From: Clostridia bacterium
GTDB lineage: Bacteria > Bacillota > Clostridia > UMGS1840 > HGM11507
Reading direction: 5' to 3'
Length of the DNA stretch: 64,000 bases
Assembly (NCBI GenBank): GCA_017554615.1
Contig: JAFZHY010000023.1
Coordinates: forward strand, 1 to 64,000
Shown: positions 33,657 to 53,860 of the stretch, piece after piece
How the letters are laid out: every line of letters starts with the position of its first letter
How positions within the stretch are numbered: the first letter of the stretch is position 1
Translations under genes and position numbers: made by a program
The notes under the pieces: generated by a model
What the model was told of the DNA's origin: nothing
What the model saw: only the letters and a program-made list of their open reading frames with translations
Database searches by the model: none

Positions 33657-34820
<1,164 letters not shown>

Positions 34821-34831
34821 TATAGTTATAT

Positions 34832-35009
34832 TCGCCTGACGGCGAGTTATATTTGCCTTGCAAGTGATATTTGCTCTGCAAGTGATATTGCCTTTGGCAA
34901 TTAGTTTGCTTATGTAATAACATAAGCAAATACCACTAAAACTAACAGTTTTAATATCACTTTTACCATTTGGTAAAAATATCACTCTTTACAAAGTAAA
35001 GAATATCAC
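34832..35009. repeat. Hairpin array A: eight different mini-hairpins with GTGATAT/ATATCAC linkers
   Basis: Eight hairpins of different sequence: TCGCC-TGAC-GGCGA (34832), TTGC-CTT-GCAA (34853), TTGC-TCT-GCAA (34871), TTGCC-TTT-GGCAA (34888), one with arms TTTGCTTATGT and ACATAAGCAAA (34905-34930), TAAAACT-AAC-AGTTTTA (34937), TTTTACC-ATTT-GGTAAAA (34961) and TCTTTAC-AAA-GTAAAGA (34986). Linkers: GTTATAT 34846 and GTGATAT 34864 and 34882 in the left half; exactly complementary ATATCAC 34954, 34979 and 35003 in the right half. It lies between tgt and degV, which converge, and carries no ORF. Confidence 0.85.
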
Positions 35010-35019
35010 TTAAAAAATT

Positions 35020-35056
35020 AAAGTCTGAAACGGTTAAAATCGTTTCAGACTTTTTT
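35020..35056. terminator. Bidirectional terminator between tgt and degV
   Basis: 13-bp arms AAAGTCTGAAACG and CGTTTCAGACTTT, 8-nt loop, U-rich on both sides (T6 on the plus strand). Serves the convergent tgt and degV transcripts. Confidence 0.85.
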
Positions 35057-35070
35057 AACATTCCCTTTTT

Positions 35071-35958
35071 TTAATCTATTCTTTTATCACCCATATAGAA
35101 CAGCGCTACTGTTCCTCTTCCTGTATGAGAGCCTATAACTGCTCCGATATCATTAATTAAAACCTTACCTTTAAGAGCAGGTATTCTTTCTTCTACAAGG
35201 TCTTTTACTGCCTTTGCATCTTCTATACAATCTGAATGAGAAATAAAACATTCTCCGTTATATGAAGCACCGCCTTTAGCATGTTCTTCCATTGTGGCAA
35301 CAATTTCTTTAATAACAGTTTTCTTGCCTCTTATTTTCTTTCTTGCTTCAAGTTTTCCTTCAAAACTTACATTAAGCAAAGGGCAAATTCCAAGGAGTGA
35401 GCCTAAAAGCGCAGACGCAGATGATACTCTTCCTCCCCTTTTTAAGTGAGTTAAATCAGAAGTAAAGAACCAGTGATGAACATTAAGCTTATTATCTTCT
35501 GCCCAGTTATAAACCTCGTCAATAGATTTTCCCTCATCTTTTAAATCGGCAATTTTTTTAACAAATAAACCGTATCCTGAAGAAGCAGCCAATGAATCAA
35601 CTACCAGTATTTTTCTGTCAGGATATTTTTCACTAAGTTCTCTTGCTGCAATCTGGCAGGAATTAAATGAGCCTGAAATTCCTGAAGATAAGGAAATAAA
35701 GAGTATGTCTTTTCCCTCTTTTAAGTACTTTTCAAAAAACTCCATATGTTCATCAACATTTATCTGACAGGTGGTAGGCATTCCTCCGTCTGCTATTCTC
35801 TGATAAAAATCACTAAACGGATAACTTTCTCCAAAATCATCATCATACTGCTTGTCATCCAAAAGGAAATGAAAATATAAATATTTAATATCTCTTTCCT
35901 TAAAAAAAGCCTTTGGCATATCTGCAGTTGTTGCACATGCTAATATAAAATCATTCAT
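35071..35958 (-). CDS. DegV family fatty-acid-binding protein, second copy
   Basis: A 295-residue DegV-family protein. SLSSGISGSFNSCQIAA near residues 88-104 is the conserved serine motif, and LTHLKRGGRVSSASALLGSLLGICPLL (about 166-192) the conserved second helix and carboxylate-binding region; HTGRGTVALFYMG (about 279-291) is the family C-terminus. It differs from the degV at 12103 in the N-terminal half (MNDFILACATTADMP...) and is longer, so it is a paralogue of separate origin, probably binding a different acyl chain. It is monocistronic on the minus strand. Confidence 0.9.
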   Translation of the reverse strand: MNDFILACATTADMPKAFFKERDIKYLYFHFLLDDKQYDDDFGESYPFSDFYQRIADGGMPTTCQINVDEHMEFFEKYLKEGKDILFISLSSGISGSFNSCQIAARELSEKYPDRKILVVDSLAASSGYGLFVKKIADLKDEGKSIDEVYNWAEDNKLNVHHWFFTSDLTHLKRGGRVSSASALLGSLLGICPLLNVSFEGKLEARKKIRGKKTVIKEIVATMEEHAKGGASYNGECFISHSDCIEDAKAVKDLVEERIPALKGKVLINDIGAVIGSHTGRGTVALFYMGDKRID

Positions 35959-41729: not shown

Positions 41730-41954
41730 GCGATATACTCACTTCGTTCGTGCGATATATTTTCGCTCCTCTCAAATGCGATATAACTCCATTTCATTCC
41801 GTTGCGATATGCTATAAATTCCTTTTCATTTTTGACATATCTCGCCTATGGCGAGAATATTCAAAAATATATCGCATTACGAAGTAATATATCGCACCGA
41901 AAGGTATATCGCAAATTCCGCAGGAATTTATATCGTTGCGGTCGCAGACCGCAA
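41730..41954. repeat. Hairpin array B: mini-hairpins with GCGATAT/ATATCGC linkers
   Basis: Left half: GCGATAT linkers at 41730, 41752, 41778 and 41804 with weakly folding segments between. Centre: a long hairpin 41828-41868 (arms ATTTTTGA..CTCGCC and GGCGAG..TCAAAAAT, loop TAT). Right half: ATATCGC linkers at 41869, 41889 and 41906 joining ATTAC-GAA-GTAAT, ACC-GAAA-GGT, AAATTCC-GCA-GGAATTT and TTGCGGTC-GCA-GACCGCAA. It separates the SLH gene end from phd. Confidence 0.85.
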
Positions 41955-53761: not shown

Positions 53762-53860
53762 GCGATATACTCACTTCGTTCGTGCGATATATCGCACCGC
53801 AAGGCATATCGCAAATTCCGTCAGGAATTTATATCGCTGATTTCATCTTTTATGAAATCA
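53762..53860. repeat. Hairpin array C: short form with GCGATAT/ATATCGC linkers
   Basis: GCGATAT at 53762 and 53784, then ATATCGC at 53789, 53806 and 53831. Hairpins: CC-GCAA-GG (53797-53804), AAATTCC-GTCA-GGAATTT (53813-53830), TGATTTCAT-CTTTT-ATGAAATCA (53838-53860). The first 31 bp (53762-53792) are identical to 41730-41760 of array B; positions 53789-53836 match 41889-41935 with changes mainly in the loops. Confidence 0.85.

Follow-up and report, generated by a model that had tools for sequence, protein, structure and literature searches.

Hairpins of differing sequence that alternate with a constant short linker between two convergent genes raise the question of whether such a locus encodes a structured RNA, serves the 3' ends of its neighbors or is a copy of a mobile element. 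The locus considered here lies in a stretch of 64,000 nucleotides from a Clostridia bacterium (contig JAFZHY010000023.1; the whole stretch is referred to as the window), where the intergenic gap between tgt and degV carries eight hairpins (34832-35002) set in a frame of 7-nt linkers, or heptamers (Table 1).

Anatomy and predicted fold of the array

Direct reading of the linkers and hairpins confirmed the eight hairpins, the 7-nt frame and the single flip that a first-pass annotation of this DNA had described. In the left half a heptamer, GTGATAT or GTTATAT, precedes each hairpin, and in the right half the complementary ATATCAC follows the hairpin, with one degenerate right linker (TACCACT). 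The 7-nt repeat is thus inverted between the two halves, whose complementary linkers give the array ends that are able to form a stem. The limits of the array had to be revised: the unit starts at 34823, and an omitted hairpin 3' of the array (35020-35053) probably belongs to it. Linker 3 and the 5' arm of hairpin 3 are complementary to a closing arm at 34925-34937 (pair I6, 92%); in most relatives the closing arm pairs with unit 1 rather than unit 3, which counts against reading the window copy as a mobile element. Folding of 34823-35010 as DNA gave -36 kcal/mol (z -7.9, 0/200 shuffles as good), and folding as RNA gave -56.4 for the plus strand (z -7.5) and -60.3 for the minus strand (z -7.0), with 0/200 shuffles in each case.

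Table 1. Features of the tgt–degV locus in the window.
Feature	Position	Strand	Basis
tgt (tRNA-guanine transglycosylase), left neighbor	33690..34820	+	ORF
Whole flip array (left half, central hairpin, right half)	34823..35009	+	Sequence; fold z -7 to -8; alignment A2
Rfam Gut-1 (RF01706) match, hairpins 1-3 and beginning of 4 only	34823..34893	+	54.7 bits, cut-off 50
Left linker 1, GTTATAT	34825..34831	+	Direct reading
Hairpin 1, TCGCC-TGAC-GGCGA, position-homologous to hairpin 1 of other copies	34832..34845	+	Sequence, alignment
Left linker 2, GTTATAT	34846..34852	+	Direct reading
Hairpin 2, TTGC-CTT-GCAA	34853..34863	+	Sequence
Left linker 3, GTGATAT	34864..34870	+	Direct reading
Hairpin 3, TTGC-TCT-GCAA	34871..34881	+	Sequence
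Left linker 4, GTGATAT	34882..34888	+	Direct reading
Hairpin 4, TGCC-TTT-GGCA	34889..34899	+	Sequence, covariation alignment
Central hairpin, TTTGCTTATGT-AATA-ACATAAGCAAA, 26 nt, at flip point	34905..34930	+	Pair I10, 100%
Degenerate right linker, TACCACT	34931..34937	+	Direct reading
Hairpin 5, AAAACT-AAC-AGTTTT	34938..34952	+	Sequence; 6/7 pairs double-changed across copies
Right linker, ATATCAC	34954..34960	+	Direct reading
Hairpin 6, TTTTACC-ATTT-GGTAAAA	34961..34978	+	Sequence, covariation alignment
Right linker, ATATCAC	34979..34985	+	Direct reading
Hairpin 7, TCTTTAC-AAA-GTAAAGA	34986..35002	+	Sequence, covariation alignment
Right linker, ATATCAC	35003..35009	+	Direct reading
Terminator-like hairpin, AAAGTCTGAAAC..GTTTCAGACTTT, 10 nt past array, probable member of the unit	35020..35053	.	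Resembles hairpin behind 4HB gene
degV-like gene, convergent right neighbor	35071..35958	-	ORF

Conservation of the fold

An alignment of 28 GTGATAT-type arrays (A2; the window array and 27 relatives) was searched blindly for helices, which recovered most of the hairpins and a 12-bp long-range helix joining heptamer 1 and arm 1 to the closing block about 100 columns away. Both sides had changed in 23 of the 39 pairs, 97.2% of the cells pair, and the 141 double-change cells compare with 33 after shuffling (0/500) and no more than 20 in slid controls. The long-range helix covaries (column pair 6-118: UA 19, AU 6, CG 2), and because it shares one arm with the local hairpin 1 the two folds compete. 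These data support a fold that is conserved while the sequence of its stems is not, as the first-pass annotation had proposed, and supply the compensatory stem change between copies by which it had suggested testing that proposal. The pairing of left with right linkers that it predicted is likewise supported, because the linkers change jointly on both sides between subfamilies and because the long-range helix covaries. The hairpins are not unrelated, as it had called them: in the alignment they match the hairpins of other copies position by position.

By an unbiased count 91-95% of stem pairs are Watson-Crick, with few G-T intermediates. The loops are closed by C-G. Those of the left half are mostly TNC-like and those of the right half mostly GNA-like, with C(GNA)G and GNNA frequent and no preference for GNRA; the C(GNA)G and GNNA pattern is suggestive of DNA mini-hairpins, albeit not decisive. 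A strand test based on G-T versus A-C mismatches initially hinted at the folded strand (34 vs 11, both halves combined), but this signal was unreliable because the mismatch counts were confounded by linker positions, and it vanished under a stricter count (10 vs 5, p 0.30).

Gut-1 and the array family

An Rfam scan of the whole window yielded a single match, to Gut-1, confined to the left half of the array and above the 50-bit cut-off of that model; the array therefore does not lie in an rRNA gene. RAGATH-6, mir-722, PyrG leader and similar Rfam matches had weak scores and were treated as chance. The survey that named Gut-1 lists it for the human gut only, and the passages found there on Gut-1 speak of no larger or mobile unit (PMC2864571).

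The genome containing the window (G000; 1.28 Mb) holds about 25 flip arrays of this kind, and a congener (G001; both are draft assemblies) has more. Matches to the Gut-1 model numbered 35 in G000, 12 of them above the cut-off (the window copy and 11 others), and often consisted of a plus match followed immediately by a minus match, i.e., of flip arrays; the right half, when read on its opposite strand, likewise matches the model in many copies. The search of related genomes that the first-pass annotation had recommended thus found arrays in abundance, with 45 matches in the congener and some in 17 of 60 relatives. The copies follow a common plan. On the left, a terminal hairpin (hp0) and CA are followed by three or four units of heptamer plus hairpin; in the middle, a closing block is the inverted repeat of heptamer 1 and the 5' arm of hairpin 1; on the right, the closing block is followed by three hairpins with the complementary heptamer. 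Heptamer subfamilies were distinguished (GTGATAT/ATATCAC, GTGAAAT/ATTTCAC, GCGATAT/ATATCGC, GCTAAAT/ATTTAGC and GTTATGA/TCATAAC), in which both sides change together, and tandem and truncated copies are common. When viral contigs were scanned for a pattern of three GTGANAT linkers, the matches listed were mostly single and chance-like.

The window holds a second full flip array, of the GCGATAT/ATATCGC type (41739-41940, minus strand), which is preceded by the hairpin CGGTCTGCGACCG and is close to the CGATAT heptamer type of a four-helix-bundle (4HB) gene in the same genome (L122). A short GCGATAT remnant array (53763-53839, minus strand) lies just 5' of a small gene and has a terminator hairpin farther upstream. 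The right ends of GTGAAAT copies (e.g., L056, L059, L071, L073) carry a recurrent tail of GCATC and about 20 nt ending in CCA, placed where the displaced native terminator resumes; this tail has three variants (TAAACCATTCGGCTCTTCCA, ATTATTGTTCTGCTTTGCCA and TATTATGTACGTGAAAGCCA) and is present also behind the 4HB gene in L127 and L108.

Dispersal and target sites

Between G001 and G006, which belong to different families (tgt 69.8% identical), array identity reaches 98.6% over 218 bp; the homology of the most similar pair extends from CCA|GAAAAA to GAAAGCC and the sequence outside is unrelated. For G006 and G007, which are of one genus, identity between the copies read did not exceed 75%. In the congener, a different species, tgt is likewise followed by degV, and the gap between them holds no array. 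Dispersal with sharp ends, near-identity across families and the empty orthologous locus establish, by genome comparison, that the arrays are a repeat that spreads. The first-pass annotation had taken the constant linkers and free stems for the reverse of a repeat spreading by copying; the array does spread, and the constant heptamer is a mark of the mobile element. Its overall reading therefore stood as regards conserved fold and linker pairing, failed as regards spread, and missed the links to Gut-1 and to the 4HB gene.

The arrays show a preference in their targets. GTGAAAT copies begin 31-40 bp past the 3' end of a tRNA or tmRNA in 23 of 40 cases, as opposed to 0 of 31 for GTGATAT and GCGATAT copies, and the tRNA-associated arrays are placed behind a terminator hairpin. 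Several GTGATAT copies lie inside split terminators, for example L063, where the terminator is split into 22-nt matching arms with a CTTTC direct repeat, and L069/L118, with the arms AAAAAGCCACTC and GAGTGGCTTTTT and the direct repeat CTCGTATG; the excess of split terminators is modest (9/104 vs 2.7% expected). A loose search for terminal inverted repeats over every copy gave mostly background scores, and such repeats together with direct repeats are recognizable in few copies only, which counts against an element. Despite the many arrays, no reverse transcriptase (RT; PF00078) was detected in the draft assemblies of G000 and G001 and no Y1 transposase (PF01797) in that of G000; hitchhiking on an RT and mobilization by Y1/RAYT are thus unsupported.

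Linkage to a four-helix-bundle gene

Directly behind several arrays lies a small gene whose product (MADSVLRDKAKQFAKD...TSIGANLHEAQYAQSK) is a TIGR02436 'four helix bundle protein' (PF05635, '23S_rRNA_IVP') with a solved structural relative, 2RLD. In the converse search most PF05635 genes of related genomes had an array directly 5' on the same strand, among them L101 in G000, where a GTGATAT array like that of the window is linked to a 4HB gene. At least 545 4HB relatives turned up in scanned genome contigs; the 80 that were kept are all from Clostridia-type records, one of them from the cultured Ruminococcus bromii. A strict detector placed flip arrays within 420 bp upstream of 40 of 77 4HB loci, compared with 2 of 416 control windows, and most of the loci that it missed proved on reading by eye to have arrays with mixed heptamers. 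On the tree of the 80 4HB proteins, heptamer type changes seven times (minimum 6; shuffled 39, 0/200), and G000 alone has three heptamer types at its 4HB genes (L101, L111, L122). Array and gene move jointly, so that this co-segregation of heptamer and 4HB clade shows them to be one unit; it is consistent with recognition of the array by the 4HB protein without proving it. The gene is under strong purifying selection (dN/dS 0.015-0.10).

At 30 of 44 loci with at least 45 nt from array to start codon, mostly of the GTGATAT type, a sigma70-type promoter (TTGAAA, 17 nt, TATAAT) begins at the downstream edge of the array, as opposed to 1.1% of shuffles, so that in the GTGATAT subfamily the array would lie upstream of the transcription start and outside the 4HB transcript. 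A terminator-like hairpin is often found upstream of the array in this subfamily. In the GCTAAAT type the array is mostly 16-26 nt from the start codon. In G001, GTGAAAT is the commonest kind of array among those read, but none of the 4HB genes read there is of this type, which speaks against assuming a strict pairing in trans between an array and a matching 4HB protein.

About one third of 99 4HB genes checked (L100-L129, L131-L208) are followed within 60 nt of the stop codon by an ORF of varied kind (ion channel, EamA, AzlC, MazG, NUDIX, DJ-1, GIY-YIG/DUF4357, nucleotidyltransferase, HNH); the 4HB unit may be the head of a cassette or may simply insert upstream of genes. In L205, L207, L203, L194 and L198 the 4HB ORF appears to lie between the two half arrays instead of behind both, as in a classical intervening sequence (IVS). 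A record labelled bacteriophage (L403, MT835815.1) has the same segment of tRNA-Arg, array and 4HB gene as the R. bromii contig (L155); the record may be mislabelled, or a prophage may carry the element. Two Avd-like proteins with a weak PF05635 match (L110, L126) are encoded less than 1 kb upstream of RTs in G006 and G004, where DGR-like variable repeats also lie close by.

The wider PF05635 family

A control set comprised PF05635 genes outside the array group, from other families of the phylum and from Bacteroidota, Spirochaetota and Cyanobacteriota plasmids. Most of these genes are flanked by plain 7-nt repeats that are inverted on the opposite side of the gene, such as (TAGTGAT)n and AATCACTA in Bernardetia, and AATTCGC and GCGAATT in Nostoc. 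Self-similarity beside 4HB genes has a median of 0.64 at lag 7, with lags 4-6 and 8-12 at the background of 0.43-0.45; a fixed cut at lag 7 was passed by 18 of 27 4HB loci compared with 9 of 108 controls, and inverted 8-mers common to both flanks occurred in 20/27 and 15/108, respectively. Three of the 4HB genes lie inside 23S rRNA genes (L382, L390, L394), with degenerate 7-nt repeats inverted across the gene, and two inside RNase P RNA genes (L389, L391), where the flanks are inverted heptamer repeats and the Rfam RF00010 match spans 775 nt compared with a 367-nt model. In view of these repeats the linker of the window array is most likely the heptamer of the element, and from their sequences the clostridial arrays are most likely heptamer repeats to which a hairpin has been added at each step.

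The window copy, a proposed element and rival explanations

The tgt stop codon is followed 3 nt on by the array. In gene-bearing copies (L105, L106, L118, L130, L138), a hairpin resembling the one 3' of the window array sits behind the 4HB gene. This hairpin (CTGAAAC..GTTTCAG sites) occurs five times in G000, four times linked to an array: at the window array, at those of L013 and L024, and at a remnant array after groEL (L222); the fifth, L219, is a plain terminator of this type. Counting against an element, the window copy has no 4HB ORF, no left terminal hairpin and no recognizable target duplication; terminal inverted repeats with target-site duplication were recognized in few relatives (e.g., L063, L069, L009) and not in this copy. 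It is read here as an element without its gene, and former possession of that gene we only infer, since insertion of an element next to a terminator of this type is possible as well.

Taken together, the array in the window is probably a non-autonomous copy, lacking the gene, of a small IVS/4HB-type mobile element. A full element would consist of terminal hairpin, flip array and 4HB gene, with a family-specific heptamer as its 7-nt linker. Because the tandem heptamers of one half recur in inverted orientation in the other, a single strand could fold as a ladder of helices formed by the linkers, each step bearing a hairpin. The 4HB protein would bind this folded heptamer-hairpin strand, as DNA or RNA, and help full and gene-less copies to spread by means of host enzymes, with insertion at hairpin tips or the ends of RNA genes. 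The tolerant sites would be terminator loops, tRNA and tmRNA genes at their 3' ends and, in the wider family, loops of 23S rRNA or RNase P RNA.

A free-standing structured small RNA, Gut-1, with a cellular job, whose hairpins and linkers are selected as RNA, would account for the Rfam match, the strong covariation and the good RNA fold, and the 2010 survey marks Gut-1 as 'certainly' RNA and probably not cis-regulatory (PMC2864571). We consider it unlikely all the same: the Rfam model spans less than half of the unit, non-Watson-Crick pairs are rare, and tens of dispersed, horizontally shared copies fit an element better. In the GTGATAT subfamily, moreover, the promoter at the downstream edge of the array argues against an independent noncoding RNA, and together with the terminator-like hairpin often found upstream it would leave the array outside the 4HB transcript. 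Equally improbable is a 3'-end element useful to the host, either an RNA stabilizer or a two-way terminator, that spread by recombination and was kept for its job. The start of the window copy just past the tgt stop and the many copies that follow tRNA, tmRNA and protein genes, foremost the GTGAAAT copies behind tRNA and tmRNA ends, would suit it, but the tgt of the congener does without an array, tRNA-associated arrays stand behind a terminator hairpin that is already there, some insertions split pre-existing terminators, and the 4HB gene is left unexplained.

The scarcity of G-T intermediates in the stems, and the frequency of tandem and truncated copies, could also reflect a mutational by-product, in which replication slippage and template switching would create the palindromes between heptamers, or improve them, with no selection acting on the fold. 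Such a process is very unlikely to be the explanation, given an architecture that is constant across families, a covarying helix that spans some 100 columns, and TNC/GNA loops closed by conserved C-G pairs. The lowest probability is assigned to mobilization by a known machine acting on single-stranded DNA or by reverse transcription (IS200/IS605 or RAYT Y1 transposase; DGR or group II intron RT). Recognition of hairpins and the terminator and tRNA sites resemble such systems, and the PF05635 profile also matches the Avd-like proteins beside RTs; against this stands the lack of detectable RT in the array-rich G000 and G001 and of Y1 transposase in G000.

Relation to known systems

If the window array is an element copy, Gut-1, a listed noncoding RNA, would be reclassified as part of a mobile element. 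What Rfam models as a 77-nt RNA with three hairpins is the left half of each array, whereas the unit found here, about 190 nt long, has an inverted second half and is usually closed by a long-range helix; this unit is mobile, occurs at dispersed sites and in full copies adjoins a 4HB gene. Compared with MITEs and REP/BIME sequences, the arrays are likewise short, gene-less, palindromic and dispersed between genes, but their stems vary around a constant 7-nt linker and their partner gene encodes a 4HB protein, not a transposase. The conserved palindrome with a GTAG foot that marks REP/BIME with RAYT is absent from the window array, and G000 has no detectable Y1 transposase. A DGR with Avd would call for an RT and a template repeat, and G000 and G001 yielded no RT.

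The closest resemblance is to IVS of 23S rRNA genes with an S23p/4HB ORF. RNase III cuts IVS out of the precursor RNA, and some IVS have no such ORF. Both share the protein family (TIGR02436/PF05635), inverted flanks able to pair into a stem that encloses the ORF, and insertion at hairpin tips; the 4HB genes inside 23S rRNA genes carry 7-nt inverted flanks as well. The window copy differs in being intergenic and ORF-less, with hairpins separating its heptamers, while the ORF is present in gene-bearing copies of the same array type; arrays of Clostridia usually have both halves upstream of it. In rRNA, IVS are known to replace hairpin loops (PMC4990558).

Cyanobacterial STRRs are 7-nt tandem repeats, too, although with no hairpins between the heptamers; the plasmid 4HB genes of Nostoc and Planktothrix have 7-nt tandem repeats on either side, in opposite orientation, and may thereby be linked to the STRR heptanucleotide repeats. 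A tentative generalization, which we hold at slightly below even, is that rRNA IVS, the Gut-1 'RNA' and perhaps STRRs belong to one mobile class spanning several phyla. Its mark would be a 7-nt repeat that is specific to each family and inverted either around or next to the gene for a 4HB protein without known enzyme activity, and it would recognize and insert at folded hairpins by means of the 4HB protein and host enzymes only. Such a class would be new. Gut-1 has so far been listed only as a gut noncoding RNA; a literature search, with subscription journals and preprints mostly outside its range, found no paper that joins Gut-1, TIGR02436 and the repeat. The IVS, whose means of spread is not known, would gain many relatives located outside rRNA genes and accessible to study in strains, and the widespread TIGR02436 proteins, which have no settled job, a likely (putative) cis-site in the 7-nt inverted repeat with hairpins; the co-segregation of heptamer and protein eases the design of direct binding tests. 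Two of the cyanobacterial plasmid 4HB genes adjoin restriction or defense genes, L404 and L402 (DrmD and MmeI; DNA cytosine methyltransferase).
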